From: Powellomyces hirtus
Lineage: Eukaryota > Chytridiomycota > Chytridiomycetes > Spizellomycetales > Powellomycetaceae
Direction of reading: 5' to 3'
DNA: 64,000 nucleotides
Assembly: GCA_025526995.1 (NCBI GenBank)
Contig: JAHLKG010000010.1
Coordinates: 558,001-622,000, forward strand
The position numbers and the translations under genes were made by a program. Below the pieces are notes generated by a model. That model was not told the DNA's origin. It did not search any database and saw only the letters and a program-made list of their open reading frames with translations. Positions 2,277 to 39,907 of the stretch are shown in pieces (positions within the stretch are counted from its first letter, which is position 1; every line of letters starts with the position of its first letter).

Positions 2277-2349
2277 ATAGCGAGCTGTACCGTAAATTAA
2301 CAAGAGAGATGCTACTTGAGGTAGAGGACATTATAGTGCGAGATTCCGG

Positions 2350-3045
2350 CATCGTTGGACGATGGTCGGAGGCTGCTGGGCAGCATACCTCGCTGGGCGA
2401 GATGCCGGCCTTGTTCGAGGATGGCCGAAGGCTGCTGGGCAGCATACCTCACTGGGTGAGATGCCGGGATCGCTGGGCAATGAGCCGACGGCTTGCCGAT
2501 GCAAGGTGACTGGCACCAGATTTGCATGGCGGTGTACCTCGAGACCCGCGAGGACCATGGCCGTGGTACATACCTACGCGAAGGGGAAGAGAAGGGCTTC
2601 GGCCAAGATACCGGCATCGTTTGACGATGGGCCGAAGGCTGCTGGGCGGCATACCTCACTGGGTGAGAAGGGTGATGCTGGGCATCGGCCGGCTGCCGAT
2701 GCAAGGTGACCGGCACCAGATTTGCATGGCAGCGTACCTCGAGACCCGCGGGGACCATGGCCGTAGTACATACCCACGCGAAGGGGAAGAGAAGGGCTTC
2801 GGCCAAGATACCAGCATTGTTTGACGATGGGCCGAAGGTCGCTGGGCGACATACCTCGCTGGGCAAGATGCCGGGATCGCTGAGCGATGAGCCGAAGACT
2901 GCGAGGCAGTAGACCTCACAAGATGAGATGCCGGCATCGTTGGACGATGGCCGAAGACTGCGAGGCAGTAGACCTCACGAGGTGAGATGCCGGCATCGTT
3001 GGACGATGGCCGGGGAACCGCTGGGCGGTCTTCCCAACGGGGAAG
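2350..3045 (+). repeat. Mini-hairpin array in the G1a 3' region
   Basis: A tandem, roughly 60-bp-period array made of short perfect palindromes of the form 5-6 bp stem, TGG/GAG/TAG loop, stem. Examples are CATCGT-tgg-ACGATG, GCTGC-tgg-GCAGC, CTCAC-tgg-GTGAG, and ACCGC-tgg-GCGGT at 3017-3029. The array lies between the pol stop and the antisense zinc-protein gene. Long open frames inside it, on both strands, are by-products of the repeat. Confidence 0.85.
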
Positions 3046-3432
3046 TGTGATGCAGGGCATCTACCATGAGCACCATGGCCGGGAGGAAGCCGAGTGACAT
3101 TGGACACAGCGGACGCATACGAAATGCTATAAGGCTCAAGGGAGCACAGCGATGAGAAGGCAAGTACAGCAATGAGATTGTGGTACTGAATTTGATTATA
3201 CGGGCCAAAGGCCAGGCCCCAAAGGAGCAACAGACAACAAGTGAAAGTATGTACAAGAAGGAGGGGGGGGGGAGAACTAATCAACCAATCTTGGTGAAGG
3301 AGAGTTGGCACCGGTTGCCATGGTACCGGTCACCCAACCCGCACCGGAGGGGGGTGTAATTTGCCACATTCATCTCGCTGCGGAGAGAGCTGAGTTAGTC
3401 AGGTAAGACAGCAGTAGGCCGAAGAGTACTAC

Positions 3433-4020
3433 TTACGCGCGGACGTGGCCCATGCAGTGGAGATGGTTGCATGGAAACATGCGGAGGTCCGCTCCGACAT
3501 GGTTGCAGCCAGCGAACTGGCACCCAGCGGGGACGGCTGCAAAGAAGAGGACCCGGTTGCAGTGGAGGGCGCCGCACATCAACTGGCCCTGAGGGCCGTC
3601 GTTCTGGAAAACAAAAGGGACAAAGGAACCACACCGTCAGGAAGGCATCAGGCCGCATCTCAGCGAAGGGGAACATACCGTGTCGTCGGCCGCCGCCACG
3701 ATGCAGGGCCGGCACACCAGATGGTGGCATTCCGACGTAAACATCTTGCCCTTGCGGAAAAGATGGCACTTCCAGCAAGTGGGCAAGTCGGCCGACCCCT
3801 CGGGGGTGGACTTTTCATGGACCGAAGGGTCCTGTAGATAACAAGGGAAGACGGGGAACATGAGACAAATCGCCACAGCCGAGGATGAGCACCGACCCCT
3901 ACTTACCCGGGCGGGCTGGGCCCGCTTGGTCGCGCCTTTTGCGAGTTGCTGGGCGGGACGGCGCTTGCCCGCGGTGGTGGTGTCGGAGGGGAGAGGAGAG
4001 TTGTTGGCGACGTCGGCCAT
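3433..4020 (-). CDS. G1a antisense three-exon gene for a Cys/His-rich (putative zinc-binding) protein
   Basis: Exons on the minus strand are 4020-3907, 3831-3679 and 3603-3433 (38, 51 and 57 codons with TAA; 145 aa). ATG begins MADVANN. Introns have GTAAGT/TTATCTACAG and GTATGT/TTTTCCAG ends, and all junctions are in phase 0. Residues 1-38 are basic and Ser/Thr-rich. The rest holds a fixed ligand pattern: C-x2-C-x12-C-H-H-x2-C-x2-C-x17-C-x4-C-x12-C-x4-C-x11-C-x-H-x2-C-x2-H. That suggests two or more structural zinc sites, RING- or treble-clef-like. I do not recognise the family. It lies between the hairpin array and the 3' LTR, opposite to pol. G1b and G1c carry orthologous copies with the same exon layout. 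Function is unknown; regulation of the element or nucleic-acid binding is only a guess. Confidence 0.75.
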
Positions 4021-4025
4021 GTTGT

Positions 4026-4073
4026 TGTGTATGTATGTATGTATGTGTGTGTGTGTGTGATGTGTGTGTGTGT
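4026..4073 (+). repeat. GTAT/GT microsatellite
   Basis: A run of GTAT units followed by GT dinucleotides with one GATG interruption. It lies just upstream, in antisense sense, of the start codon of the G1a antisense gene. G1b and G1c lack it. Confidence 0.9.
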
Positions 4074-4477
4074 CGAGCTACAAAGGAAAGAAGAGCGAGA
4101 GGGGGGAGATTCGACGGGCAGTACCTTTTAAAGGCTCGACCTGCTTGGGAACGCTCGGAAATTCAGGTGTTAGTGTTTCATCCCCTACGGAGCGCAGCAG
4201 ATGTTACTTATCGAAATCTGCATGGAGGAAGCTACTCGTGATTCATCTAGGGCCCCTGCGAAGAGAGAAATAGACTATTCGACGACTTCGCGCACCCCGA
4301 AGGGCGGAGACTACCCGCCGGAGGCTACCGCAACGTGACCCGCACCAGGGCCGCCTCCCCAGCCTCATCTTCCCACAACCACGTCAGCATCCGTTAACCT
4401 GCCGCCGTCCGGCTTAGGCAATCTTCGCCTCGCTGAAGAGATTCGAGCCTAAGAGACAGTCGCGAATCTAAGAGGGG

Positions 4478-4752
4478 TGTAATGAGGCGTGGCTCGCCAG
4501 CCTAAGCCTAGATACGCGTCGGGAAGGGTCCCGCGCGAGATGGATGCTAGCGTCAGCATCCCGAAGGGTACTAGACCTCAGGGATGGCCACGGATGGCCA
4601 TCACGTGACCGGGACCGCCCCGCGGTCCAGAAGAAAAGTAGGAATACGCCGACGAGGGCGTATTCAAGACTTAGAGATCTTACAGTAGAATTAGAGATAG
4701 GGAATTCCCGAATAGAAGACTAGACTCTGGCAACGGACCTAGTATTATTACA
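4478..4752 (+). repeat. G1 LTR (3' LTR of G1a, abutting G1b)
   Basis: 275 bp, starting TGTAATGAGG and ending TAGTATTATTACA. A polypurine tract (AGAGGGG) lies directly upstream. The same 275-bp unit recurs at 9939, 29504 (reverse), 32011 and 39633. It contains TCACGTGA at 4601-4608. Directly after it, with no primer-binding site or gag, comes G1b RT sequence, so it is the junction of a tandem pair with an internal deletion. Confidence 0.95.
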
Positions 4753-4753
4753 C

Positions 4754-5508
4754 TTACGCTGCTGCATTGATTACCGGGCACTGAACAAGATGACCCACAA
4801 GGATGCCACGCCGCTCCCGACCCTCTCGGAACTACGCGACAGGCTTGTCAACATGCGGGAATTTACCGCGATCGACATCCGCGACGCGTATCACTGCATC
4901 ATGATTCGACAGGAAGATAGGGAGAAAACAGCGTTCCGAACACGTTTTGGGCATTTCGAATACAATGTTCTACCTTTCGGCTTAACTAATGCACCTGCTA
5001 CATTCCAGCGACTAACGAACAAACTCTTGGGCGACAAGTACGACGCTTACGTGATCTCATACCTCGACGATATTCTCATATTCAGCACCGACATGAGTTC
5101 GCACATTCAGCACGTCGACGAGGTCCTCAAGACCTTGACGGAACATCGCCTCCACGTCAAACCCAGCAAATGTCAATGGGCGGTTGACGAAGTCGAGTTC
5201 TGCGGCAACCGAGTCGGCAAGGATGGCCTGAGTATCGCCCCCTCCAAGGTGACCGCGGTCCGGGAACGACCTTGCCCAACCAACTCCCTGGAGCTCCTTA
5301 GCTTCATGGGCCTCGTCAACTACGTCAAGGAATACATTCCCGAGTATGCACAGATTGCCCTGCCACTAACGAACTTGCAATCCGGCAACCGCCCATGGCA
5401 GTGGGGTGACGAGGAAGATCAAGCGTTCAATCGCTTAAAAGAATTATGCTCCTCGGCACCCACCCTAGCGTACTTCGACCCGGCGCTCGACACCTACTTG
5501 TTCCGGAC
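4754..5508 (+). pseudogene. G1b pol segment 1: reverse transcriptase
   Basis: Open in frame from the LTR edge. It starts inside RT at the CCIDYRALN motif, passes FGLTNAPATF and the catalytic YLDDILIF, and reaches the RNase H start. The leader, gag, protease and the first RT motifs are missing. A one-base loss near 5503 (ttgttccgg where G1a has ttgttcacgg) ends the correct frame; the open frame then runs on out of phase to 5602. G1c carries the identical lesion. Confidence 0.85.
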
Positions 5509-7150
5509 GCATCGGGCTACGCCTACGGTGGATGGCTGGCACAGCCGGCCAAAGGGGATTTCCCTTATCCTCATCCACTACCAACCACCAAATCGGGCTT
5601 AGCCAACCTTCCGCAACTTCGCCCGGTGACATACTACTCCCGCAAGATGCAACCCGCCAAGACTCGATACCCCGTGCATGAACAAGAACTGCTGGGACTA
5701 GTCAAATCCATACACGCCAACCGCCATTACCTCATCGGCCGCCCATTCCGCGCGTTTGTTGACCACAAATCCCTGATCTACCTCCAGGAACAACCCCACC
5801 TGTCACGTCGCCAAGCAGGCTGGGTCGAGTTCCTCCAACAGTTCGATTTCTCAGTGGAATACCTCCACGGCACATGGAATTTGATTGCCGACTTCCTCAG
5901 TCGCGACCCGACTTACGCCCCCAAGTGTGCGACCTGCCAGGCCAAGATCGACGTGGTCACCGCCATTGTGTCGACGGAGAAGCCCGTCACAACGCACATG
6001 CCGACCGATGCGGACTGGACCCAAGCGCTTGCATCGGATGATTTCGGCCAACACATCTTACTAACCATCAACAGTCCACCGGAGAACCTATCCGGCCATG
6101 CACGTCGATTCCGGACAAGGGACTCCCCTCCGCACCGATTCTTGATGTACCATGACCGTCGGTACGTCCCCGACAGCTTGCGGGGGCCACTCCTTCAGAT
6201 TCATCACGACTCCCTCGCGAACGGTGGGCACTCCGGTGTCCAACGAACGCTCGCCAAACTTCTGGAGTTGTACTATTGGCCCCACATGGAACGTGATGTG
6301 TACCAATATGTCCGCACCTGCCCTACATGCCAATGCCACAAGCGCGCCGCACCGATCGGTTTCCTCCGCAGCTTACCGATCGCTGACGCTCGTTGGCAAC
6401 AAATTGGCATGGATATATTCTTCCCCACGTCCGGCTCTAAGGGGGGGGAACCTCGGGTAGAGCCCGACGTGACGAAGAACCCTTCGCACCACACCGGCAA
6501 GAGACTGACCAAGACGGCGGATGCTGTACTCCTCATCGTTGACTACCTTTCATGCCGCATGATACTTCTACCTACTAACACACGCGCTACAGCTCAGGAG
6601 ACGGCTCAACTCTTTCTGGAACAGGCATTCCGCCACATGGGGTTACCCCACACCATTGTGAGCAATCGGGACCCCAAGTGGCTATCAGAATTCTGGCGGT
6701 ACCTTATGCGGGCACTCGACGTCAAGCAGGAACTCTCGTCGGCACGACACCAACAGACCGACAGCAAGGCGGAGAACGCCATCAAGACGGTCAAGGGAAT
6801 CATGGGCCCCTTTCTTGACTATGCCGGCTCCAACTGGAAGAGTTTACTCCCCACACTTGAGTACAACTACAACCGAATGCCGCAGACGTCGACAGGACTA
6901 TCCCCTTTCAAGATTGATCCAGGCCGCGTTTCCCGCGTACCGAACCAATGGGTAGCACCTAACCCCGGAGAGATGATAAGGCAATCGGCACGAACCGCCG
7001 TGGAGAGACGGATTAAGGAATTCGCCGACGTGAGTCGCATTGTGCAGCAACGGCTCCGAGACGCACAGGACCAGCAGGCAAAGTACTACGACCGCAAGAA
7101 GCACACGGAAGCATACCGAGAGGGTGACAAGGTCTTACTCCATCATGAGA
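5506..7150 (+). pseudogene. G1b pol segment 2: RNase H and integrase
   Basis: Continues G1b pol after the frameshift: RNase H, H2C2 zinc domain, and integrase core D-D-E. In the second motif D is replaced (VSNRDPKW instead of VSDRDPKW), and the E motif reads QTDSKAEN, so the enzyme is probably inactive as well as frame-broken. A small insertion near 7146-7150 shifts the frame again; the open frame beyond that, to 7422, is an out-of-phase reading. Confidence 0.85.
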
Positions 7151-7607
7151 GGGTATCGCGATTACCAGCGTCACCACAAGGAACAAAAACCTGGCTGAGC
7201 AATGGATTGGACCATTCACAGTACGCGGCAAGGGCCCGCAGCCTGACACCTACGAGCTCGAACTACCCAGGGAGTTCACAGGGTTGCACCCAGTCTTTCA
7301 TGTCAGCATTCTCAGACGTTACCACGACCCGGGTGGTACCCCGTACAGACAGGTCACCGCCCTGCCTGAGCCCGAGAAGGACAAAGACGGTCAGGAGACC
7401 TACCAAGTGGACAGGATCCTAAACGCTAGATGGCACAGGAACACCGAGCAGTTCCTAGTCAAGTGGACAGGTTACGACAACACTCAGAACACGTGGGAGC
7501 CGTATGCACACGTGAAGGGAACAACCGCACTGGAAGAATGGCTCCGGGAGCACCCCGGTGAGGACCGCGGCCAAAGGCTAGCAGCCAGGCGACGTAAGAG
7601 AACCTAG
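7149..7607 (+). pseudogene. G1b pol segment 3: integrase C-terminus with chromodomain
   Basis: In this frame the GPFTV...PVFHVSILR integrase C-terminal block is joined correctly to the chromodomain (YQVDRILNAR, FLVKWTGYDN, NTWEPYAHVK) and a basic tail ending RRRKRT. It shows the native protein end of the G1 family, which is lost from frame in G1a and G1c. The stop at 7605-7607 precedes the non-coding 3' region. Confidence 0.85.
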
Positions 7608-7680
7608 ATAGCGAGCTGTAATGTAAATTAACAAGCGAGATGCTACTTGAGGTAGAGGACATTATAGTGCGAGATTCCGG

Positions 7681-8556
7681 CATCGTTGGACGATGGCCGA
7701 AGGCTGCTGGGCAGCATACCTCGCTGGGCGAGATGCCGGCATCGTTGGACGATGGCCGAAGGCTGCTGGGCAGCATACCTCACTAGGTGAGATGCCGGGA
7801 TCGCTGGGCGATGAGCCGACTGCTTGCCGATGCAAGGTGACCGGCACCAGATTTGCATGGCAGCGTACCTCGAGACCCGCGGGGACCATGGCCGTGGTAC
7901 ATACCTACGCGAAGGGGAAGAGAAGGGCTTCGGCCAAGATACCGGCATCGTTTGACGATGGGCCGAAGGCTGCTGGGCGGCATACCTCATTGGGTGAGAA
8001 AGGTGATGCTGGGCATCGACCGGCTGCCAATGCAAGGTGACCGGCACCAGACTTGCATGGCAGCGTACCTCGAGACCCGTGGGGACCATGGCCGTGGTAC
8101 ATACCTACGCGAAGGGGAAGAGAAGGGCTTCGGCCAAGATACCGGCATCGTTTGACGATGGGCCGAAGGTCGCTGGGCGACATACCTCGCTGAGCGAGAT
8201 GCCGGAATCGCTGGGCGATGGGCCGAAGACTGCGAGGCAGTAGACCTCACGAGGTGAGATGCCGGCATCTTTGGACGATGGCCGAAGGCTGCTGGGCAGC
8301 ATATCTCGCTGGGCGAGATACCGGGATCGCTGGGCAATGAGCCGAAGATTGCGAGGCAGTAGACCTCACGAGGTGAGATGCCGGCATCGTTGGACGATGG
8401 CCGAAGGCTGCTGGGCAGCATATCTTGCTGGGCGAGATACCGGGATCGCTGGGCGATGAGCCGAAGCCTGCAAGGCAGTATACCTCACTAGGTGAGATAC
8501 CGGCATTGTTGGACAATGGCCGGGGAACCGCTGAGTGGTCTTCCCAACGGGGAAGT
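7681..8556 (+). repeat. Mini-hairpin array in the G1b 3' region
   Basis: About 876 bp of the same palindrome array as in G1a. Sample units: CATCGT-tgg-ACGATG at 7681-7695, GCTGC-tgg-GCAGC at 7703-7715, CTCGC-tgg-GCGAG at 7720-7732, GTCGC-tgg-GCGAC at 8169-8181, ACTGC-gag-GCAGT at 8229-8241, CTCAC-gag-GTGAG at 8246-8258. Both arms change together between units, so pairing is kept while sequence varies. Confidence 0.9.
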
Positions 8557-8945
8557 GTGATGCAGGGCATCTACCATGAGCACCATAGCCGGGAGGAAGC
8601 CAAGTGACATTGGACACAGCGGACGCATACGAAATGCTATAAGGCTCAAAGGAGCACAGCGATGAGAAGGCAAGTACAGCGATGAGATTTTGGTACTGAA
8701 TTTGATTACGGCCCGAGGGCCAGGCCCCAAGGGAGCAACAGGACGAAATTATGTACAAGAAAAAAAGGAAAAAGGGGGGGGGGAGACCAACTAGTTGATA
8801 CGGGTGAATGAGAAGAGGCATTTTGCCCCGTGGCAGCGCTCCCCCATGCCGCATCGGAGCGGAGTGAAATTCGCAATGTTCATTTCGCTATAAGAAGAAT
8901 GGATCAGCCGGTAAGGTAAGCGTATAATCGACGCGAAGAGATGAC

Positions 8946-9524
8946 TTATGCGCGAATGTGCGCCATGCAGTTGACATGGGCGCAGGGGAGCCAGCGGAGG
9001 GCCGCCACGGCGGAGGGGCAGGCGTCATGGACGCAACAGACCGGGATTGCACCGAAGTGCAGCGTCCTCCCGCACCGGTCGACACCACATACAAACTGGC
9101 CCAGAGGGCCAGTGTCCTACAGAAGGGAAGGAGAGAGAGAGGGAATGAGTACCAAACAACACCGGAAAGCCTCATAACCAGCGGGAACGTACTGTGGCGT
9201 CGGCCAAGGCCATGATACATGGCCGACAAATCATGTGGTGGCATTCCCCGAGGAACATCTTGCCACCCTTGTGCAGGCCGCATTTCCAGCAGGTGCTGGT
9301 TGCGACCACGACCTCCGGGGTCGAATTGTAGTGGACGGTCGGCTCCTGTGAGACGGCGTAAGGGGATTACCGCGACCAACGGGAACGGTCAAGACTTCAC
9401 TCACCCCGGCGAGCTGGACCTTCTTCGCGGCTGCCTTCTGCAGCTGTTGGTTGCTACGTCGTTTAGCCGTGGTGGTGGTGATGGTGGTGTCGGGGGACTG
9501 GGAGTTGTTGCGGTCGACGTCCAT
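8946..9524 (-). CDS. G1b antisense three-exon gene for a Cys/His-rich protein
   Basis: Exons are 9524-9405, 9345-9193 and 9116-8946 (40, 51 and 57 codons including TAA; 147 aa). Introns have GTGAGT/TCTCACAG and GTACGT/CTTCTGTAG ends, the second with a long pyrimidine tract, and junctions are in phase 0. ATG begins MDVDRNN. After a basic Thr-rich N-terminus come CWKC, GKMFLGECHH, CRPC, a C-x4-C, a second C-x4-C and PCAHVNCMAH, all at the same spacing as in G1a. The gene is intact although pol of the same copy is destroyed. It is antisense to the element and about 410 bp inside the 3' LTR. The family is not recognised. Confidence 0.78.
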
Positions 9525-9938: not shown

Positions 9939-10213
9939 TGTAATGAGGCGTGGCTCACCAGCCTAAGCCTAGATACGCGCCGGGAAGGGCCCCGCGCAAG
10001 ATGGATGCTAGCGTCAGCATTCCAAAGGGTACTAGACATTAGGGATGGCTATGGATGGCCATCACGTGACCGGGACCGCCCCGCGGTCCAGAAGAAAAGT
10101 AGGAATACTCCGACGAGGGCGTATTCAAGACTTAGGGATCTTACAGTAGAATTAGAGATAGGGAATTCCCGAATAGAAGACTAGACTCTGGCAACGGACC
10201 TAGTATTATTACA
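9939..10213 (+). repeat. G1 LTR (3' LTR of G1b)
   Basis: A 275-bp copy with the same TGTAATGAGG...TTATTACA ends, preceded by the polypurine run AAGGGGGG. The next five bases, TCCGA (10214-10218), are a target-site copy. Their reverse complement, TCGGA, lies beside the G1 LTR at 29778/29779. Confidence 0.95.
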
Positions 10214-10685
10214 TCCGATCCACTTGGCCGTGAGATTGGCTGGTTTAACTTGGTCGAAGTTGATTGCAAGTTGTTCGCGATTGAGATCGACGAGATCGCC
10301 TATTTCGAAGGCAATGGGGGTGCATCCTTGGTTGAAGTATTGTTCATAACGGTCTTGCTCGTCGTGGAGAGCTTGTTGGACCGTGAGATTGATTTCGGTA
10401 GCTCGTTCCTGGTACAGTCGAACAAGAGCTCGGTTTGGCGGTGTCATTTGAGCAAGTTGTTCTGGATTGGTATTCCAGCCTGGAGGGCGTGGCATTCGGT
10501 TCAACTCAATTTCGAATGGAGCAAGGCCATTGAGATGGCGTCGGGGCATCGAATTGAGGCAGAACTCGACCAATGGTAGGAATTCACGCCAGTTGGATCC
10601 GCTATAATTAAGGTATTTGCGGGTGACGAATTTGGTAACTTGGATCATTCTTTCTACTCGGCCGTCAGTTTGTTGATGTCGTGCC
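10214..10685 (-). pseudogene. G2 Ty3/gypsy integrase, middle part
   Basis: Minus-strand frame beginning at ATARHQQTDGRVERM (the integrase E motif) and running to NLTAKWIG, where the G1 LTR cuts it. Upstream, it continues across the C1 insertion into the segment at 16452-17214. Its missing C-terminus (GPFTIAAKGPHPD) is on the opposite strand at 29779. G2 differs clearly from G1 in sequence. TSD TCCGA occupies 10214-10218. Confidence 0.85.
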
Positions 10686-11088: not shown

Positions 11089-14000
11089 GGGATTTTACTC
11101 ATTCGGGAGCTCCGTCATGGACACTTTCGTCATTGGCGTGATGGTGTTGTTGTAGTGCTTGATGCACATGCTTTCGCGATGGTATTTGAATGCCGGGGCC
11201 GGTAGAGGCTTCGTAAGTGAGTCGGCTACCATTTCAGCGGTGGGTAAGTACTCCAGGTGAATCTCCTTGTCGATGTGATCACGAATGAAGTGATGTCAAA
11301 TGTTGATGTGCTTGGTACGGGCGTGATGCACGGGATTCATTGCCAACGAGATGCATGACTGATTGTCTTCGTAGATCGTTGTAGGTCGAGCATTCTCATC
11401 GAGATATTCGGGGATTTGGAGTTCTTGCAGAAGTGAGCAAAGCCAGATTGTCTCTTGAGTGGCGAATGAAAGTGCCATGTATTCAGCTTCGGTAGATGAG
11501 AGAGCGACGGTGGGTTGGCGCTTCAAAGCCCAAGTAACAGGGCCCGCATTTCCAATGTAGAAAAGGTAGCCAGTGATTGACCGTCGATCAATGATGTTGT
11601 TTCCCCAATCGGCATCGCTGTAGCCGTGAAGGGTGACGTTATTTCCGCCAATGCAGAGGCTGTAATCTGATGTTCCCCGTAGGTAGCGAAGAACGCGCTT
11701 TGCAGCTTGCAGATGTTGAGGCAAAGGGTTGCTTGCGAAGCGAGAAAGCATACTGACTGCGACAGCGATGTCAGGACGCGTGCATATCATCAGGTACATG
11801 AGAGAACCAACGATTTCGCGATATTCTCCTTCTTGCGGGTTAGGTGAAATCTTTGTATTTTCGGCTTCGTAGGGTTCGAGCTTGGTCTGGTCCATCGGAG
11901 TGTTGACGGGCTTGCAATCTTGCATACCAAAGCGCTCGAGGATGTCATTTACATATGACTCTTGATCGAGATAGATGACGTGCCTTGAGTAATCGCGTCG
12001 AACTCTCATTCCCAGGTAGTGGTTGACTTCGCCTAGGTCTGTCATGTTGAACTCGTTGTGCAGGGATGTCTTGATTGACAAGATTTCCGATTCGGTCTTT
12101 GCGAAAATGAGGAGATCGTCGACGTCGACGGAGATGTACTGCGATGAGTCACTTTCAGGTAGAGTTCTGATGTAGACGGCATTGTCATTTGCCAGGCGCT
12201 TGAATCCCAAAGAAGTCAGTTCTTTGTGAAGCAGGGAGTATCATTCGCGCGGGGCTTGTTTCAGACCGTAAAGGGCCTTTCGGAGTCGAAGGATGGTCCC
12301 AGGCGGAAAGCCAGAGCCTTCAGGAGCATAGATTAGGATGGTCTCGGTAACAATCCCATTCAGGAATGCGGTTACTACATCCATTTGATGGCATTTCAAG
12401 CCTAGACTGGCGGCGAGAGCGAGGAGGACGCGTTGGGTAGCTATCTTGGCAACCGGAGCGTAGGTTTCGTTGTAGTCGATGCCGTAGCGTTGTTCGACGC
12501 CTTTCACTACAAGCCGGGCCTTGTATTGTTGGGGTTGACCATTCAGGTCTCGCTTAATCTTGAATACCCATTTAGTGCGGATGGGCCGTTGATTGTGCGG
12601 TAAGGATTTGGGGTTAATGACTTCCCATGTTTCATTGGTATGAAGGGACTTCAATTCAGCATTTATGGCCTCGGTCCACTTCGGTGCGTCGTCTGATGAG
12701 AGCGCTTGTTTGTAGGTTTGGGGTTCTTCGGTACTTGCAGCCGAAAGAGCGATTGCCGTCTTCTCGTTGATGTAGTCAGCGAAGACTGTCAAATGATTGA
12801 CATTTTCGAGCGGTTCCCATGTATTATCTTTGTCTTCAAATCCTAGCCATTTGCAGAGGAATTCAGGGCCTTCCGGGCCATCACGTGAGTCGAGAATCTC
12901 TTCGACTTCGTAGAGTTCTTCGGGCGGGATATAGTCTTTCGCGAGTTCGAGTGCTGAGTTTTCGTCGAACGTTACATCGCGAGAAATGACTATTTCTTGA
13001 CGGTTGTCATCCCAACAGCGGTAAGCGCCGTCAAATTCGTAACCAATGAGTTTGAGACGTGTGGTGCGCGGTGCCAACTTTGAGACTTGTTTTCTCTTGA
13101 CGAGATGCACGAAGGCATCGGCCCCAATCACACGAAGGTGAGAGAGTGAGGGCTCTTCGCCGTTGAGCCGTTCGTACGGCGAAATGTTGTTATTGGACTT
13201 GTGGGGTAGGCGATTCCGTAAGTAGACTGATGTAGCCGCTAACTCGGTCCAGAGTTGTTTCGGGATGCCGTATGAGTGTTCCAATGAACGAATGGTGTTG
13301 AACAGGGTGAGGTTGAACCTTTCAGCTACACTGTGAGACTGTGGGGAATCTGCAGCGGTGAGTTCGTGCAGAATGCCCTTTTTCGAAATGAATTCTTTCA
13401 GATCGTGATTGACAAACTCCCCCCCTCGATCGGAGTGAAGTCGTCTGACCCTTTTGTTGGTCTGTTTTTCGATGAAATTGATGAATTCAATCAATTTTGC
13501 AGTAGATTCGCTCTTCGTCTTCAAGAAGAAGATCCATGTGAAGCGTGAATAGTCATCGATCACAAAGAGGGCATATTTCTCATCGCCAACCGCGGGTATG
13601 TGCGGACCGTTTAGGTCGAAATGTAGGCGATCGAGTGGCGTCTTGGACCGTGTCATTGTACCGTTGAATGGTGAGCGCTTGTGCTTACCAAACTCGCAAC
13701 CTTTGCAGACTTCGTTGGTCATTGGGAGCTTGAGTTGCTTCATGATGTGAGTGCCAGGATGGCCCAATCGGTGATGCCAGAGGGTTCCTTTGTTGACAGG
13801 AGAAAAGGGACCAGAACAAGCCCCAGAAGAAGCCGCCGAAGCAGCGGCGGCGGCGGCATTGGCGGATGGTGCCCCCTCGGGGGCACCATCCTCGGCATCA
13901 TCCGATGCCTTTGGGGCGGCCGGCCCCCCACCACAGCACCCACAACTCCCACTCTCCAGTGGGGGGCTGGCCAGCCCCAAATTGGGGCGGCCAGCCCCCT

Positions 14001-15966
14001 CACTGGAGAGTATGGGGCCGGCTGGCCCCCCATTCGGGGCAGCCGGCCCCTCCGACGTGGCTTGGAGTGGGGTAGAATGCGTGACCGCCATACCGGTAGC
14101 GTCTGTCGACAGGTTGAGTGCTTGAATCGATGTATCGGACGCGTGTGTCGGTACATTGGACGCGTTTGTCCATTTTGACAATTCGGTAGATGTATTTTTC
14201 GACGCGTGTGTTGGTACATTGGACGCGTGTGTCCTTGAGCGAGTTTGAGTAGCAAAAGCCATCGGAGTTGGCGAGATGTGATACATTCCTCGAACGAGAG
14301 GTATGGTGATGTCGTTCGTAGTGCCATTGCAGTCTTGAATGATAGCGCTCTCATCTTCAAAGGTGACTCTCTTTCCATCTTTGGCAAGTGCGGAGACCGA
14401 GATGAGAGTCTTGGCGAGCTTCGGAACATAGAGAACATCTGTGAGGGGTACATCTCCATCGGGAAGCTTCAAGATAGCGTTCCCTTTCGCTTCGGCATCG
14501 AGAAAGGCGTTGTTTCCAAATCTGACGCACGTTGAGTGCTCTTCGTAGGATTCGAGAATGGAAATGTCATTCGTCATGTGCTGTGAGCAGCCCCAATCCA
14601 GGTATGCCAATGTAGTGGTGTTATGTGCTTCTGCAATGTTGGCATTAGCAGTGGGTTTTAAGGTTTCGACTGCCTTGGCTTTGAGGGGACAATTGAATGG
14701 GGTATGTTCATTCGAATTGCATAACCAACAGGGGAAGTTCTGTCTCTTCTTCGAGTCTGTGGTCTTCTTCGCGTCGGTCTTCTTGTGACTTGAGCCGTCT
14801 TTCTTCAAAGGTTGGGCTTCGAGCGGGATGTTTTCGCTCTTCTTGGCAAAACGATTATTGTTTTGGTTACTCTTGTTACTTCCGTTATCCAGACACTTGG
14901 CAGCTGCCATGAGGCCATGGAGATCCTTTAAACTTTGAGCTCTGACGAGCTCTGCATGATGTTCATTCATTCCGCGAAGATAGAACCACTTGTAGATTTC
15001 GAACGGCACCTTCAAGGGGATCTGACTTGTGATCTTCGTGAATGAGGTATTGTACTGCGAGATGGAATGACTTCCTTGTCGGAGTCTTTCAAGTTGAGTG
15101 AGCAGAGTTTCTTCGTGATTGGTTGGTTGGTAATGCGAGAGGAAAGGAGGCTTGAAGGATTCCCAGTCTGTGATGGGCTCCACCATCCCTTGTTCGGCAT
15201 CTTTCTGGTGATTACAATACCATTGTTTTGCTTCGCCAGAGCGCTTCGTGAAGATGAATGAGAGCTGTTCTTCTTCAGATACGGGTTTTAGGCGAAAGAC
15301 TAGAGTGAGTTGATCAATGAAGTCGGCGAGTTTTGAGAGATTTCCCGTCCCGTTGAATGTAGTTACTGCATCGATCGCAGATTTGAAGTATGCGAATGAT
15401 GTACGTTGTGCGTCACGGTCATCGCTCTTTCTGCTGCTCGTAGTTGTTGTGCTCTCCGTTGGGGAAGATGGACGAAAGTGAGGGGCAACTGGGGCTTCAA
15501 CTTTGCCGTGAGTAATGTGTTGATGTAGAAAAGGGTACTCAAGGCCCGCTTTTGGGCTTCTCATCGGTGAAACGGCCATAGGATGACCACCGATATGAGG
15601 CTTTTCGTACTTCTCGGGTTGTTGATGGGAAGTTGATGTAGCGAGAGGGTTTGAACTAGTCAATAAAGTCCTCTCCAACCTGTCCATCCGATGGTCGAGC
15701 TTTTTGTCGATTTCCATCTTGAACCTCTGCAGAATTTCCATGACAATGTCAGTCGGTACTTCGGACGGTACTATCGCCAAGTCTGCATGAATTTCTCCAT
15801 GATTCATCTCATCCACATCGGCATCTGTGTCGTGGGAATCATGGTAGATCGAGGCGTAGATATTAACGTCTTCTTCAGCATCAGGACCCCGTTGAGCTTC
15901 TCGTGTGGCTTGACGGGCTTGTTGGCGGGTCTGCACTCTTTGAATGGGAGATCTTGCAGTAGGCAT
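11089..15966 (-). pseudogene. C1 gag-pol polyprotein with an internal chromodomain, two nonsense codons
   Basis: One frame of 1626 codons from ATG at 15966 (MPTARSPIQR) to TGA at 11089. Gag has a CCHC knuckle (CWLCNSNEHTPFNC, ~residue 410). The protease site reads DWGCSQHM, where DSG is expected. After a low-complexity Ala/Gly/Pro segment come the GAG-pre-integrase motif (LWHHRLGH), integrase D-D-E (FDLNGP, HSDRGGE, VAERFN), then a chromodomain (VEEILDSRDG, FLCKWLGF, NTWEPLENVN; ~residues 1019-1060), RT and RNase H. The RT active site reads VDVDD instead of YVDD. TGA at 12241-12243 replaces Trp in QAPREW, and TGA at 11293-11295 probably replaces Arg before HHFIRDH. Both fit G:C to A:T changes. 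Confidence 0.88.
13864..14050. repeat. Cluster of GC-rich palindromes inside the C1 coding frame
   Basis: Four hairpins lie close together. 13864-13891: a perfect 13-bp stem (GGATGGTGCCCCC) with a 2-nt loop. 13894-13909: a 6-bp stem, GGCATC. 13951-14011: arms ACTCTCCAGTG plus GGGGGCTGGCC with one mismatch, enclosing GCCCCAAATTGGGGC. 14014-14050: a perfect 11-bp stem, GGGGCCGGCTG. The cluster is read through in frame as Gly/Ala/Pro-rich sequence between protease and integrase. Confidence 0.9.
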
Positions 15967-16081
15967 CTTGACGGTGTGCTCGGTACTTTCTTGGCACTTG
16001 AATTTCAACGGAAGACTTGTAGTTTACAGGTTTTACAAAGGAAGAATGATTCGAATTCGACCGGTCTCAGGGCTCATAACC

Positions 16082-17220: not shown

Positions 17221-17436
17221 ACGTGACCCCCGCTGCGCAATGGTGCTTCATCTGACCGCGAATGCTTAGATAGCTTGCACAGCCACCTTTCTTCTTCGTA
17301 GTGTAGCTCTCCTTCACCCATCGTTTACACAAAAACAACAACACAATCATTCCATTGTCATCGAGAGTGTCGAGCTAGCTTTTCTCTGTTGCACTACCCC
17401 TTAACCGGACCTACGCACAACAGGTTATGAGCCCTG
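17221..17436 (+). repeat. C4 5' LTR (3' portion) and primer-binding site
   Basis: The LTR ends CACAACA at 17422 and is followed by GGTTATGAGCCCTG (17423-17436), the same half-tRNA-Met PBS used by C1, C2 and C3. The left edge of the LTR cannot be fixed, because the 3' LTR is missing and the flank is degenerate G2. CACGTGAC occurs at 17220-17227, near the presumed edge. Confidence 0.6.
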
Positions 17437-17503
17437 TCAGCCCGCTCAATGCTTAAAACGACAAACATCCTGCATCCTTCTTCACGTTGTTCAATACTCA
17501 ATC

Positions 17504-19177
17504 ATGCCATTGTCCCGTAGCCCCATTCGGACCAGGTCCGGAACAAACACTGCCCCTGCGCCGACGCAGGATTCTGCAGATGAGGGTCCTCACAGTGAGG
17601 ACGACAAGAGTCGAGCCGCTCGACCTGACGACGAGATCGTCACCAAGGAGTATTTGGAGAAGGCGCTGTTGGAATCCCAACGCATTATCGCCGAAATGCA
17701 GGAACGCATGCTGCTGGAATTGCAGCGACTCGCCGCCGAGTCACAAAGGGAGTCTCAGCACCTTGCGGCTGAATCCCAACGAGAGATGATGGAAAAGATG
17801 ATTTCTACCTTCGCACAAATGCAAATGCAGACGGCCGCCGCTGCAAACCCTCACGTCTTCCCGGAGGACCGCCCACACTCTTGCTCATCAGAGAATTCTT
17901 CTCCCACGTCATCCTCAATGAATTCCGTTGCAAAGGAGCTCCTTAAACAAGTTCCCAACTTCGATGGCAATATGAGTAGCCCGCAATTACTTCTCGAATT
18001 CATTGCAAAACTGGACGACTTTTTCGAGGTTGCATACCTTCCGCCACTTCTCGAAGCAAAAATGGCGGTAAGCAAACTCACATCTACCGCTCACATCTGG
18101 TGGAGGACCCAGGAAAGCCAGGGGACCGCCCCTCGAACATGGAATCATCTCAAAACAACGCTATGCCTGAGATTCACACCACCAGCGTTCAGCTCGATGA
18201 TCCGCGATAAACTGGATGATCTTTCGCAGACCACGTCGGTTATTGCATACAACAATGCGTTCAACAAACTCGTCATGCAGATTCCCGACATGAACAAAGG
18301 AGAAATCGAGCATCGCTATCTCAAGGGACTCAAGCGTCCTATCTACTCAGCCATCATCTCAAAGGATCTCTTGGATCTGGACGCCATGCAGGAAGCCGCA
18401 ATCCGACAGGAACAGCTTACCTCAGAACGGGGCGCTTGTGTGCCCAAAACCGAGTCTCACGTTGAAGCCCATGTGATGCATGGCAATTCGGACGCCACCA
18501 CCAATGAACACGCGCCCCGAAAATCGTGGAAAAAACAACGCCGCCGCTCAGTTCCAGGATCTCCCTGCCTCCTCTGCGAACAAACCGGTCATTGGATGAA
18601 GGACTGCCCGAAAATGAAGGACGCGCGCGAGCTCCTTAAACAACATCAGCAAGAACCTGCTGCCGAAGCAAACCTCGTTTTGGCAACTAACCACAGGTCC
18701 TCGCACTCAATCGCCCTCGATTCTTGCGCAACGCACCACATTATCAAGGACGCTATTCTCCTTACTGACCTGCGACCCATCCCGGCAGTCCAAATCAGCG
18801 TCGCAAACGGCGAAAACCTTACCGCTCGCGAAGCAGGCACACTCACCATCAGCAATAACGACACGGACGAAGCCATTGTCTGCGTCGACGTGCTCTACGT
18901 ACCTGAAGCGAGCCGCAACTTGGTTTCCACATCGCCACTGAACCGGGACGGTTACAAAATCACGTTCTCAACTAACGGTTCCTCCATTTTAAAGAACGGC
19001 TGCGTTATCCTACCGCTCCGCCACAACGGAAACCTGCCATTTATCGATGGTTATGTTGAAACCACCGCCGCTGCTTTTGCGACCGAAGCTGCAAAACAAA
19101 GGACCGCAATGTCTATAAACTATGGCATCAACGCTTTGGGCACATTGGACAATGAGCGCTTCAAGCTGCGAATCTGA
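17504..19177 (+). pseudogene. C4 Ty1/copia gag and protease
   Basis: ATG at 17504 (MPLSRSPIRTR) fits the position just after the PBS leader. Gag has a heptad-like region (residues ~45-100) and a CCHC knuckle CLLCEQTGHWMKDC (~residue 354). The protease motif is LDSCATHHI, with Cys in place of the usual Gly in DSG. Near 19105-19115 a frameshift moves the GAG-pre-integrase block (LWHQRFGHIG) into another frame, so the last ~25 codons to 19177 are out of phase. Confidence 0.85.
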
Positions 19178-21544
19178 TCTACTCTCTCGATCTGCCAAAC
19201 AACGTCGAACCGGAACACGCGCTGTGCTCCGGCTGCTCCCTCGGTAAATCCACTCGGCTGCCCTTCAATGGGCAAAACTCTCAACCTGCAACCAAACCAC
19301 TTGATCGCATACACTCGGACATTCTTGACATGGGCGCCAATCTTCTCTCCCTCTCTGGTGCCCGCTACATCCTCACGTTCATTGACGAATACACACGGTA
19401 TTCCGTCATCTACCTCCTCAAGACCAAAGATCAAACCAACGATTATTGGCAAAACTATCGCGCGTACGCTGAACGCCATCTCGACTCCAAGATCAAGGAG
19501 CTGCGCTGCGATAACGGCGGTGAATACTATCCCCTACAGGCTGAGCTGCTCGCCGATGGGATCACGTTAAACCCTACTCACCCGTACTCCTCTCAGCAAA
19601 ATGGCATTGCTGAACGGTTCAACCGTACGCTCATGGACCAGGTCCGAGCGATTCTTCATGACAGCCGCGCTCCTTTCAAACTTTGGGGAGAACTCGCTAT
19701 GGCCGTCAACTACCTGCGTCAACGGACGCCATCAACGTCTCTCAACGGAGAGACCCCATACCAACGTTGGTTTGGGACCCCTGCCAATGTATCGAACCTC
19801 CGCACCATCTGGAGCGTGGCCTATATGCATCAACCTGTGCGCCGTCGCACACACCGCAAGCTCGGAGCTCGCGCTGTCGGACCGTTCCGACTAGTGGGAT
19901 ATCACCCCACTAAACAAGGCAACTATCGCCTTTACAATGCATCGACGGATTCGATCATCGACGCACGAGACGTCACAATTAACGAGGCTGATTACGTCAG
20001 CCCTGTCGCTCAGAGCGACACCACTCCTGAATATGTGGTTGAGCGCATCTTACTCTCTCGCAACGGCGAAGGGGGAGAGGAATTCCTGGTCAAGTGGCTT
20101 GGCTACAATGAACCAACATGGGAACCCCTCGACAACGTCAAGGATTCAGAGGCCCTGACGCGATTCACCGGAATCGAAGATGACGGCACACCCGTAATCG
20201 CCGAACTGCATGCCGCATGCAGCACTGACATTGACGAGCCCGCCACTTACCAGGCGGCAATCACCTCGCCGTACGCGAAAGAGTGGAAACAAGCGATCGA
20301 CGCTGAACTCTCGTCTCACCTCACTAACAAGACGTGGGACACAGACACCACGCAAACACCGTCTGGCACTCACCTTGTTGATTCCAAATGGGTCTTCAAA
20401 GTCAAACGCAACGCCGATGGTTCCATCAAGAAGTTCAAAGCCCGCCTCGTCGCCCGAGGCTTCACACAGCGTGAAGGCATTGACTTCAACGAAACATATG
20501 CGCCCCTCGTCAAGTTTAACACCTTGTGGGCGCTACTCGTGCTTGCTGCTAAGCTCGACCTTCACGTCCATCAGATGGATGTCATCACCGCATTTCTCAA
20601 CGGAGATCTCGACGTAGAAATCTGGATGCGGCTCCCAGCCGGCGTCGCTGACGACGTCGTCAAACTACGCCGTTCCCTTTACGGCCTTAAACAATCGCCG
20701 CGCCTATGGAACAAGGTTCTCGACTCCTTTCTTCAACAGCTCGGGTTCTCAGTATCAGAACTCGACACCGTGCTCTACATTAAGGGGACTGACAACACAA
20801 GGATCCTGATTGTTGCCGTCTACATGGATGATCTCACGATTCTCGCATCAAACCTCAATGACCTGCTCGCTCTCAAATCCGTGCTTACCGAACGCTTCAA
20901 GATGGAGGACATGGGGGAGATCTCTTTCCTTCTCGGTCTTCAGATTACGCGCGACCGGTCAAAGCGATGCATTACCATCGGCCAACAGAAGTACATCAAA
21001 GACATGATCGACAAGTTTAACCTTAACGGCATGCGGCCGCATCACATCCCGATGGACCCGACCTTACATCTAAACGCGCACGATGGAGCCGACGCCCTCG
21101 ACGCATCAGGAATCAAGGAATATCAGTCGATCATTGGAACACTAATGTATCTGATGTTAGGGACTCGCCCTGACCTGGCCTACTCAGTTTCCCGTTTATC
21201 TCAGTTTCCGGCAGCACTGACGGCCGCACACATGACGGCCGCAAAGAAAGTTTGCGCGTACGCAAACACAACCAGTGATCTCTCTCTTGTCTTCCAAGAT
21301 GGGGGAGATATTGTCGGATATTCGGATGCCGACTATGCACGCTGTACGGACACGCGTCGCTCAACCTCCGGCTATGTATTCATGCTCAACGGAGCTGCTA
21401 TTTCATAGAAATCTCAACGTCAAAAATCAACGGCGCTATCCACAGCAGAAGCAGAATACATTGCACTCGCGGAATGTGCAAAGGAAGCACTCTGGATCCA
21501 GGGTCTCCTATCCGAACTGTCAGCAACGGAGCAGACAGCAGTTC
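19156..21544 (+). pseudogene. C4 integrase, chromodomain, RT and truncated RNase H
   Basis: Follows an in-frame TGA at 19153-19155. The order is CSGCSLGKS zinc residues, integrase D (HSDILDMG), D (RCDNGGEY), E (GIAERFNR), then a chromodomain (EYVVERILLSRN, FLVKWLGY, PTWEPLDNVK; 20023-20150), RT (VFKVKRN, YMDD at 20822-20833) and RNase H. TAG at 21406-21408 replaces Trp before KSQRQKST. The frame resumes to about 21541, where the C3a LTR replaces the rest of RNase H and the 3' LTR. Confidence 0.87.
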
Positions 21545-21901: not shown

Positions 21902-22591
21902 ATGGCTAGGGTACGTCTATGAGATCCGCGCAAATGAGGCGTAAGCTCTAACTATGTGCCAGTGTAGTTGTCAGGTTCGGGCAAAGCGAAGCAGACGGCG
22001 AGAAAGACGGGACCGCCGGTAACTGCTCCTGCGACGACCACAGCTCCTGCTGTGCCGTCGTCAGTGGTGCCCTCTGCGCCACAGGGAGGCGCACCCGCTG
22101 CGGGGTTGTCCCGAGCGGAGATTCGAACGATGTCGGCAGCGCATGCCCGACAGTTCCACCGCAAGGACCGTCAAGGGGTCCTGGAACGTCACATTGAGCA
22201 GGCGAAAGACCGGGTGAAGGACCGGGCGAGGTCTGGTACGCCTCTGGGTCGCGCACGGGCGACCGGGACGCTTGATGGACTGAGGTCCATACTAGAGGAC
22301 CGGCGGAGCCGGAAGCTGGCGGTTGGGAAGGGCGAGGATGCGGCCCAGGCGAAGAAGAGGGCTGCGGACAAGAAGTCTGTAGCGGAGGTGAAAAGGATGT
22401 GGGACATCCTGGAGCGTGAAGCTCCATATAATGATGAGGAAGAGGAGGAGGAGGAGGGGGCAGCCGAGGAGTTGGAGGGACCATCGGGTTCTTCAAGCCG
22501 ACGCTCACCCTCAAGCGATGAGGATGATGGAGGAGGGGCAGGCCCATCCTCCTTGGGAGGCATTGCTTCGGGTTCCGCAATTGCGGTGTAG
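21902..22591 (+). CDS. C3a antisense two-exon gene, 210 codons, charged/acidic protein
   Basis: Exon 1 codes only M-A-R (21902-21910). The intron is 21911-21967 (GTACGT, branch-like CTCTAAC, acceptor GTAG; 57 nt), and exon 2 is 21968-22591. The junction is phase 0 and the start context is GAGGAATGG. The protein has a Pro/Ala/Thr N-terminus, a basic helical middle (AHARQFHRKDRQ, RRSRKLAVGKG, VKRMWDILERE), then an acidic run of eight or more Glu/Asp and a Ser/Gly tail. It lies antisense to the last ~210 codons of the polyprotein. C3b retains the gene with one nonsense codon. The family is unknown. The sense frame over the same bases is Pro/Ser-rich and looks less like a folded protein. Confidence 0.62.
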
Positions 22592-27479: not shown

Positions 27480-27483
27480 AACC

Positions 27484-32010: not shown

Positions 32011-32285
32011 TGTAATGAGGCGTGGCTTGCCAGCCTAAGCCTAGATACGCGCCGGGAAGGGCCCCGCGCAAGATGGATGCTAGCGTCAGCATCCCGAAGG
32101 GTACTAGACATTAGAGATGGCCACGGATGGCCATCACGTGACCGGGACCGCCCCGCGGTCCAGAAGAAAAGTAGGAATACTCCGACGAGGACGTATTCAA
32201 GACTTAGAGATCTTACAGTAGAATTAGAGATAGGGAATTCCCAAATAGAAGACTAGACTCTGGCAACGGACCTAGTATTATTACA
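32011..32285 (+). repeat. G1c 5' LTR
   Basis: 275 bp TGTAATGAGG...TATTATTACA, followed by the 12-nt PBS remnant TGGTAGCACCAC (32286-32297). Confidence 0.95.
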
Positions 32286-37185: not shown

Positions 37186-37258
37186 ATAGCGAGCTGTACC
37201 GTAAATTAACAAGAGATATGCTACTTGAGGTAGAGGACATTATAGTGCGAGATTCCGG

Positions 37259-38252: not shown

Positions 38253-38638
38253 TGTGATGCAGGGCATCTACCATGAGCACCATAGCCGGGAGGAAGCCGA
38301 GTGACATTGGACACAGCGGACGCATACGGAATGCTACAAGGCTCAAAGGAGCACAGCGATGAGAAGGCAAGTACAGCTATGAGATTCTGGTACTGAATTT
38401 GATTACGGCCCGAGGGCCAGGCCCCAAGGGAGCAACAGGACGAAATTATGTACAAGAAAAAAGGAAAAAGGGGGGGGGAACCAACTAGTTGATACAGGTG
38501 AATGAGAAGAGGCATTTTGCCCGTGGCAGCGCTCCCCCATGCCGCATTGGAGCGGAGTGAAATTCGCAATGTTCATTTTGCTATAAGAAGAATGGATCAG
38601 CCGGTAAGGTAAGCGTATAATCGACGCGAAAAGATGAC

Positions 38639-39217
38639 TTACGCGCGAATGTGCGCCATGCAGTTGACATGGGCGCAGGGGAGCCAGCGGAGGGCCGCCA
38701 CGGCGGAGGGGCAGGCGTCATGGACGCAACAGACCAGGATTGCACCGAAGTGCAGCGTCCTCCTGCACCGGTCGACACCACACACAAACTGGCCCAGAGG
38801 GCCAGTGTCCTACAGAAGGGAAGAAGAGAGAGAGGTAATGAGTACCAAACGACACCGGGAAGCCTCATAACCAGCGGGAACGTACTGTGGCGTCGGCCAA
38901 GGCCACGATACATGGCCGACAAATCATGTGGTGGCATTCCCCAAGGAACATCTTGCCACCCTTGTGCAGGCCGCATTTCCAGCAGGTGCTGGTTGCGACC
39001 GCGACCTCCGGGGTCGAATTGTAGTGGACGGTCGGCTCCTGTGAGACAGCGTAAGGGGATTACCGTGACCAACGGGAACAGTCAAGACTTCACTCACCCC
39101 GGCAAGCTGGATTTTCTTAGCGGCTGCCTTCTGCAGCTGTTGGTTGCTACGGCGTTTAGCCGTGGTGGTGGTGGTGGTGGTGTCGGGGGACGGGGAGTTG
39201 TTGTGGTCGACCTCCAT
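38639..39217 (-). CDS. G1c antisense three-exon gene for a Cys/His-rich protein
   Basis: Exons are 39217-39098, 39038-38886 and 38809-38639 (40, 51 and 57 codons with TAA; 147 aa). Splice ends match those of G1b. ATG begins MEVDHNN. The ligand residues are unchanged: CWKC, GKMF, ECHH, CRPC, two C-x4-C pairs and the terminal C-x-H-x2-C-x2-H. It remains open although gag, RT and pol frames of G1c are all broken. It is very close to the G1b copy and far from G1a. Confidence 0.78.
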
Positions 39218-39632: not shown

Positions 39633-39907
39633 TGTAATGAGGCGTGGCTCACCAGCCTAAGCCTAGATACGCGCCGGGAAGGGCCCCGCGCAAGATGGAT
39701 GCTAGCGTCAGCATTCCAAAGGGTACTAGACATTAGGGATGGCCATGGATGGCCCTCACGTGACCCGGACTGCCCCGCGGTCCAGAAGAAAAGTAGGAAT
39801 ACTCCAACGAGGGTGTATTCAAGACTTAGAGATCTTACAGTAGAATCAGAAATAGGGAATTCCCGAATAGAAGACTAGACTCTGGCAACGGACCTAGTAT
39901 TATTACA
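39633..39907 (+). repeat. G1c 3' LTR
   Basis: 275 bp preceded by AAGGGGGG and followed by the TSD GAGGA at 39908-39912. Confidence 0.95.

Follow-up and report, generated by a model that had tools for sequence, protein, structure and literature searches.

A spliced antisense gene for a probable RING-like zinc protein in a Ty3/gypsy retrotransposon family of Powellomyces hirtus

What is encoded by an intron-bearing reading frame on the antisense strand of a retrotransposon? The question is raised by a stretch of 64,000 nucleotides of the chytrid Powellomyces hirtus (contig JAHLKG010000010.1, positions 558,001 to 622,000; hereafter the window), in which three copies of a long terminal repeat (LTR) element family, namely G1a, G1b and G1c, each hold a candidate gene on the minus strand (4020-3433, 9524-8946 and 39217-38639). 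An earlier note on this DNA had proposed that each locus consists of three exons with canonical splice ends and encodes an accessory zinc protein. The existence of the antisense gene was confirmed, although with four exons and not three; it lies between pol and the 3' LTR, on the opposite strand, in most listed copies of the family and encodes a protein of about 176-178 amino acids. It is probably an accessory gene of this Ty3/gypsy family, and its RING-like zinc protein may act in trans as an early regulator.

A four-exon gene inside the G1 element

At all three loci, an ATG, GT-AG introns and the Cys/His ligand spacing given in the earlier note were confirmed, as was an exon 2 of 153 nt in each copy. 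The end of the gene had been misplaced, however. The apparent TAA stop lies inside the third splice donor (GC/GTAAGT), so that the 171-nt exon 3 of the former model is a 167-nt exon plus GTAA from the next intron, and the overlooked exon 4 beyond it adds about 31 residues and further Cys and His residues. In G1a (all on the minus strand), exon 1 (3907..4020, 114 nt) encodes a Thr/Pro-rich segment followed by a basic stretch, KRR...KGATKR; exon 2 (3679..3831, 153 nt) brings the first six ligands of the RING-like domain; exon 3 (3437..3603, 167 nt) brings the last two ligands of this domain 1 and the start of domain 2. The third donor, whose GTAA was taken for a stop codon, occupies 3433..3436, and exon 4 (3281..3377, 97 nt including the stop), absent from the earlier model, completes the gene. 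The corresponding minus-strand exons 1-3 are found at 9524-9405, 9345-9193 and 9116-8950 in G1b (8950..9524 overall) and at 39217-39098, 39038-38886 and 38809-38643 in G1c (38643..39217 overall), with exon 4 at 8791..8887 and 38485..38580, respectively. Exon 4 measures 97 nt in G1a and G1b and 96 nt in G1c, and the intron 3 preceding it 59 nt in G1a and 62 nt in G1b and G1c. Only G1a is intact among the window copies: G1b has lost its third donor (GT to AT) and exon 4 of G1c is short by one base. The spliced protein has 176 amino acids in copy a and 178 in type b, the second of two allele classes described below. The C-terminus reads ...SFTKIG-stop in G1a and ...SFTRIN-stop in G1b, and a homologous exon 4 tail, FSFT-K/R-I-G/N-stop, is found in most intact copies of both types. 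A profile search of 5.8 billion proteins returned three matches, namely DFJ77DRAFT_512327, the "oncoid" protein of a MELD virus and DFJ77DRAFT_528235. The first of these, a P. hirtus model of 178 amino acids, is identical letter for letter to the four-exon prediction for locus L071.

The host is a Ty3/gypsy chromodomain retrotransposon family of P. hirtus, as follows from the Pfam domains found on G1 copies: reverse transcriptase (RT), RNase H, integrase, an SH3-like domain and a chromodomain. G1c is a complete element, with a 5' LTR (32011..32285, plus strand; TG...CA ends, preceded by GAGGA) and a 3' LTR (39633..39907, plus strand; preceded by the polypurine tract AAGGGGGG and followed by GAGGA). 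The antisense gene lies wholly inside the element, between a tandem-repeat spacer that follows pol and the 3' LTR. The 3' LTRs of G1a and G1b are found at 4478..4752 and 9939..10214 (both plus strand; the end of the latter is good to about one base), and the 3' part of pol in G1b, with RNase H, integrase, SH3-like domain and chromodomain, spans 5410..7607 (plus strand) in two overlapping frames. In G1a, the spacer between pol and the antisense gene covers 2305..3129, with repeat spacings of 119 and 59 nt; tandem repeats of the same spacings occur at 7636-8579 and 37214-38276, their number varying among the three copies. Across 4478-4753, the 3' LTR of G1a adjoins RT-internal sequence of G1b, position 4753 corresponding to 34334 in G1c, so that G1a appears to sit within, or to be fused with, a G1b truncated at its 5' end; the second junction falls outside the window. 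An Rfam scan gave no match. The earlier statement that pol is riddled with frameshifts holds for the window, where the pol fragments are split over several frames, but some chromodomain frames elsewhere in the genome are open, up to 1340 amino acids.

Genome-wide, 90 exon-2 matches were found, possibly a lower bound, and ten of them were left out of sequence extraction. The chromodomain matches listed amount to 97, from 150 of 492 candidates scored, and merge to 94 copies. The antisense gene can be found within 3.5 kb downstream in 79 of these 94 copies, at a median distance of 1463 nt and on the strand opposite to the chromodomain in 78 of the 79, which upholds the proposal of an accessory protein encoded on the antisense strand of the element; 12 exon-2 matches have no listed chromodomain. 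When the downstream stretch was compared for 3 of the 15 unpaired chromodomain copies, two showed no similarity to this part of the element and one a deletion of almost the whole coding region. The near-precise loss, at L078 (G000:C1:128500-129900), corresponds to window positions 3270-3985; of the chromodomain copies C1:127166 and C1:134924, 7.8 kb apart, the second likewise lacks an exon-2 match. A decayed gene at the same place is also carried by L022 and L077, two older relatives with chromodomains that match the query at 71% and 60% identity, respectively; the gene is therefore older than the G1 burst.

From 81 extracted gene pieces, three under 600 nt and the two too divergent ones (L022, L077) were excluded, leaving 76 aligned copies, 59 of type a and 17 of type b. 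All 76 share an exon 2 of 153 nt; exon 3 has 167 nt in 71 of them and exon 4 has 97 nt in 65. Introns 1, 2 and 3 measure 75-76, 73-81 and 59 nt in type a (two truncated copies aside) and 58-59, 74-76 and 62 nt in type b; the length differences between types, and for intron 2 also among copies, are not multiples of three. All three introns are present at full length in 74 of the 76 copies and truncated in the other two. With intact defined as an ATG, GT/AG at all three introns and a single stop at the end, 41 of 76 copies are intact (31/59 type a, 10/17 type b), including L055 with compensating exon-1 indels, L028, L059 and L060 with a 15-nt in-frame loss in exon 4, and L001 with a 6-nt loss in the same exon. 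The commonest single splice-site lesion is a GT to AT change at donor 3 (8/76), located at a CpG in the copies inspected, which leaves the shortened product of the earlier note. Among 12 chromodomain matches in open frames of at least 1250 amino acids (the longest up to 1340), a group assembled by comparing tables by hand, the antisense gene had been extracted for nine. It is intact in seven of these; of the others, one has an indel of a single base in exon 1 and one has lost donor 3.

Selection on the frame and the zinc-ligand pattern

The substitution pattern is the one expected of a protein gene evolving under purifying selection. In exons 2-4, stops are rare in the spliced frame, namely 4 in 8118 codons of type a and 2 in 2349 of type b. 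The two remaining frames of this strand contain 117 and 112 (type a) and 38 and 21 (type b), and the three frames of the opposite strand 25, 120 and 119 (type a) and 16, 38 and 70 (type b). Nucleotide diversity is lowest at second, intermediate at first and highest at third codon positions in types a and b alike, third positions being in the range of introns 1 and 2. The mean pairwise ratio of nonsynonymous to synonymous divergence (dN/dS; Nei-Gojobori, exons 2-4, gap-free rows only, 50 of type a and 14 of type b) is 0.31 within type a and 0.31 within type b. Between the types, median dN is 0.395 and median dS 1.255 (700 pairs). Variants found in three or more copies (shared) should mostly be older than the last insertions, and rare ones should mostly represent decay after insertion. 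In type a, counted without the partial rows L057 and L021_7567, 46 nonsynonymous and 48 synonymous shared variants stand against 134 and 47 rare ones (Fisher p = 5e-5), and no such drop is seen in the other two frames of the antisense strand. The idea that the frame had been under selection during element evolution is thus sustained by the ratio of 0.31 and by the type-a contrast; a ratio near 1, which the earlier note had regarded as contrary to it, was obtained within neither type. The same note had regarded many other copies with randomly broken exons in a similar light, and 35 of 76 are indeed broken, as expected of dead insertions, with 41 intact.

The protein has two sets of Cys and His residues. 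In copy a numbering, domain 1 has a full C3HC4 set, C57, C60, C73, H75, C78, C81, C99 and C104, each ligand being kept in 57-59 of the 59 type-a copies (58/58 at C99). All eight follow the RING order, and the first six also the RING spacing. Exon 2 contains the PROSITE RING signature, C-x-H-x-[hydrophobic]-C-x2-C-[hydrophobic/A], in 71 of 76 copies. Domain 2 comprises C117, C122, C134, H136, C139, H142, C157, C163/H164 and C168, residue 163 being Tyr in the window copy a and Cys in 53 of the 54 type-a copies that cover the site. With 16-17 ligands in all, the protein would be expected to bind about four zinc ions. Columns that are mostly Cys or His retain their residue in 98.5-98.7% of copies on average, compared with 92.7-93.7% for other columns. 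The best weak Pfam matches are RING models, with E from 0.0016, and the top two matches in the PDB, both weak, are the RING proteins PCGF5 (E 0.014) and RING2/BMI-1 (E 0.16). For the Cys/His set of domain 2, no family was matched in the Pfam and PDB searches. An internal duplication of exon 2 within exon 3 was rejected, since in four comparisons between 53 and 448 of 1000 shuffled sequences reached the alignment score.

A mechanism can be proposed from these features. An internal promoter about 70-115 nt upstream of the ATG would drive antisense transcription towards pol; a candidate in G1a is the TATA-like CCTTTAAAAGG (4124..4134, minus strand), 104-114 nt upstream of the ATG. The motif CCTT[TC]AAAAGG is found 72-116 nt before the ATG in 20 of the 33 copies having 200 nt of flank (11/23 type a, 9/10 type b). 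Splicing and translation of the resulting antisense mRNA would be separate from the gag-pol RNA driven by the LTR. Reverse transcription would leave the introns in place because they are backwards in the genomic RNA and hence unspliced there, and the spliced product must for the same reason derive from antisense transcripts of the DNA. Antisense introns are used in reporters for retrotransposition assays, of which the backwards introns here are a natural counterpart. The basic stretch after the Thr/Pro-rich N-terminus could serve as a nuclear signal. The product may be a nuclear RING-type zinc protein, with eight C3HC4 ligands followed by a second RING-like set of eight or nine, which would regulate early and in trans. 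Its simplest action, at a guess, would be that of a ubiquitin ligase, or the partner of one, directed at proteins of the element or at a host factor involved in silencing or restriction, the main rival to such ubiquitin-related action being a direct regulator with class-specific targets.

Several observations weigh against this reading or parts of it. Regarding selection and splicing, diversity in intron 3 of type a falls below that of third codon positions, and sites beside splice junctions are no less diverse than sites elsewhere. One frame of the opposite strand in type a has a similar drop from rare (140/41) to shared variants (47/47, p = 6e-6), as expected where third positions coincide, so that this test alone leaves that frame possible; type b shows no significant contrast (23/20 shared vs 88/63 rare, p = 0.6). 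The second P. hirtus model, DFJ77DRAFT_528235, from another copy, follows exons 1-2 and departs from the reading frame soon after the start of exon 3. Introns 1 and 2 can be read through in phase and without a stop in 18 of the 59 type-a copies, where an unspliced product ending at donor 3 is possible; those of type b are out of phase. Nor is the gene strictly indispensable, since one copy on contig C1 lacks nearly all of the coding region. Regarding the fold, no Pfam match with reported bits reaches its curated cut-off (zf-RING_5, 18.1 bits vs 27.9 needed; zf-C3HC4, 15.6 vs 21), and the protein is therefore filed as RING-like and not as a RING member. The non-RING family Carla_C4 is among the weak Pfam matches (E 0.58), and two of the six weak PDB matches are non-RING proteins. 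Two AlphaFold models from shallow alignments have a mean predicted local distance difference test score of 36.3 and 32.6, too low for either to be of use. The last ligand pair of domain 1 is C7-x4-C8, an unusual arrangement, as this pair is mostly C-x2-C in RING domains. "RING-like" is accordingly to be understood as an argument from sequence and not as a demonstrated fold.

Allele classes, public records and other explanations

The earlier note had remarked that the G1a protein differs strongly from those of G1b and G1c. It does differ, but the gap is that of an exchanged allele cassette and not of ordinary divergence between elements. Over window positions 3200..4180, G1a is 36-77% identical to G1b and G1c in 100-column bins, while pol is 90-100% identical and the part from the cassette to the end of the LTR 83-96% (the tandem-repeat spacer is gapped in these bins and was not counted). 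Between copies a and b of the window, dS in pol is 0.10, over 666 codons; in the antisense gene, dS between the types is 1.26. Two old allele classes, a and b, are thus carried by elements with nearly identical pol, and they have been exchanged between elements by recombination. Trees of two pol segments (22 rows each) reject the monophyly of type b in the approximately unbiased (AU) test (p = 3.6e-9 with four type-b rows and 6.3e-6 with three), and also without the single old copy in each tree (p = 0.005 and 0.001); these tests were run after the trees had been inspected, and the subsets without old copies were picked later still. The type-b copies with pol sequence in these trees are few. 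The tree of the short right flank places the a copies in a separate group. The simplest route of exchange would be template switching between co-packaged RNAs.

A single-sequence protein search (E up to 1) gave as its sole match the oncoid of Powellomyces chytrid fungus MELD virus 1. MELD viruses are reportedly the subject of work by Starrett et al. in 2021. The oncoid is homologous to copy a, with 135 of 145 aligned residues identical outside gaps. The deposited sequence reads a type-a copy straight through exons 1-3 and the two introns between them, ends at donor 3 and lacks exon 4; judged from this correspondence, the record (P0001) appears to be mis-modelled. The open, in-phase introns 1-2 of type-a copies may be the source of its single-frame reading. 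Its closest matches in the genome are 95-96% identical, and it is therefore none of the listed copies. The protein was thus already present in public databases, unexplained, as DFJ77DRAFT_512327 and as the MELD oncoid.

Considering the two allele classes, it can be hypothesized that the gene is an immunity-like specificity cassette, the protein binding the DNA, RNA or proteins of its own element and setting copy number or superinfection control, with a and b as different specificities swapped as a unit like phage immunity regions. The sharp borders of the cassette, the contrast of a dS of 1.255 in the gene with 0.10 in pol, the pol trees that reject a single clade of b copies, the separate group of a copies in the right-flank tree and the basic N-terminus of the protein are all consistent with such a function; old alleles swapped neutrally via template switching would give the same picture, and neutral exchange is a possible explanation of the two kept classes. 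The cassette function is regarded as rather unlikely. Equally tentative is a broader suggestion: the cassette would encode a RING-like protein whose ancient allele classes, two or more in number, are swapped between otherwise near-identical elements because each controls or protects only elements of its own class or evades a host factor adapted to the other class. An origin of a different kind would have a gene of the MELD virus (Polinton/adintovirus-like) taken up by the gypsy element, or the reverse, so that the gypsy copies carry a viral oncoid. That the oncoid of MELD virus 1 is the only single-sequence match speaks for it, as do five matches to a Pox_A32-like ATPase above the cut-off (G000:C26:295663, C30:128246, C13:791515, C50:14180 and C3:300575; possible MELD/Polinton-like elements), one of them about 15 kb from a gene copy on contig C26. 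However, the Pox_A32 model also matched 2 of 14 control genomes, both prokaryotes, and is not virus-specific; the oncoid is a read-through fitting a gypsy copy of type a; 79 of the 94 listed gypsy chromodomain copies have the gene as their partner; and a gypsy copy within the 21-kb MELD contig would account for the label. A search of the genome with PF03175 for a MELD-type polymerase gave no match, the control genomes likewise being without one, and a scan of viral contigs with the deposited oncoid gave two pattern matches, neither confirmed; these results speak neither for nor against it. This explanation is held to be improbable.

Two further explanations dispense with the antisense protein. 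The functional product might be an antisense non-coding RNA, exerting control via double-stranded or small RNA, with the open frame incidental; antisense transcripts in such roles are discussed for other elements in passages of PMC7264820. The codon-position signature, the dN/dS of 0.31, the constancy of exon lengths beside variable introns and the conservation of the Cys/His columns all point the other way, and this explanation is strongly disfavoured, with very little probability left to it. Alternatively, a sense-strand frame over the cassette (e.g., 38621-39235, plus strand) might be the real gene. Its longest stop-free stretch spans 102-240 amino acids in type b (median 220), and one opposite frame in type a has few stops (25 in 8118 codons), but the length is not kept in type a (74-244 amino acids, median 147), and the GT-AG sites, the exon phases and the public model all fit the antisense reading. 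On this comparison of stop-free stretches between types the sense frame was rejected, and it is scarcely credible as a gene. The spliced antisense gene for a RING-like protein remains the preferred reading.

Related antisense genes, neighbouring elements and significance

In the window, three Copia-type elements with an RVT_2 reverse transcriptase and Pol_BBD are found at 12241-16023 (minus strand), 17405-21408 (plus strand) and 21948-27569 (minus strand). These also have a chromodomain and a gag matching Retrotrans_gag/Ty3_capsid, and the combination of a copia pol with a Ty3-like gag and a chromodomain looks unusual. A frame for a C2H2 zinc-finger protein at 59225-59968 (plus strand) is probably a host gene.

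The earlier note knew of no fungal Ty3/gypsy family with such a gene. If the layout is meant, this cannot be maintained, as Boty of Botrytis carries the antisense gene brtn, reportedly the subject of a study by Zhao et al. in 2011. An extra antisense gene of Boty-like Ty3/gypsy elements in Botrytis cinerea and Sclerotinia sclerotiorum, brtn resembles the G1 gene in its antisense position between pol and the 3' LTR of a fungal Ty3/gypsy element, as described in part of PMC7264820, and it is also named in passages of PMC8365987 and PMC4227169. These partial accounts, with which the comparison is one of descriptions only, mention no introns, zinc ligands or allele exchange in brtn (PMC7264820, PMC8365987, PMC4227169). 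No Botrytis protein is present among the one match of the single-sequence search and the three of the profile search. The antisense open reading frames (aORFs) of the plant elements Retand, Grande and RIRE2 (TRP28, gene23) share with the G1 gene the antisense position from pol to the 3' LTR, a long 3' internal region often with tandem repeats, and presence in most copies, and a regulatory role has been proposed for them (PMC11963269, PMC7264820, in the passages concerned). Unlike these, the G1 protein is Cys/His-rich and its gene has three introns; the words "intron" and "zinc" are absent from the main text of PMC11963269. With TRP28 (PF04195), no match was listed among families at E up to 5 for two proteins and E up to 1 for seven. 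Two marks of an antisense accessory ORF of LTR retrotransposons (aORF-3R) can be found in G1: the G1c gene (39217-38485, minus strand) is antisense between pol and the 3' LTR, and the gene is present in most copies (79/94 listed) and conserved as a protein (dN/dS 0.31). For a third mark, antisense transcription from a promoter of its own, the TATA-like motif is a candidate. HBZ of HTLV is comparable in layout only, as an antisense regulatory gene of a retroelement, according to passages of PMC11963269 and PMC7264820. The MELD oncoid differs from the G1 gene model in being a single unspliced frame without exon 4, assigned to a DNA virus. With RING-type C3HC4 proteins (PCGF5, RING2/BMI-1), the G1 protein shares the ligand order, the spacing of the first six ligands and its best weak matches; it departs from them in its scores below the reported cut-offs, the last pair C-x4-C and the unmatched second Cys/His set. 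No paper describing this gene is present among the literature matches listed, as judged by titles and the openings of abstracts. From the known cases, the G1 gene differs in its four exons, its RING-like zinc pattern and its exchanged allele classes.

For years, antisense genes have been reported from LTR retrotransposons without a known function. That the databases list the G1 gene as viral as well, with its introns read as protein, calls for a correction or an explanation. The present case offers 90 exon-2 matches in one genome, 41 of 76 aligned copies intact, a signature of selection and a testable guess at RING-like biochemistry, and its exchanged allele classes provide a direct handle on what an antisense gene is selected for.

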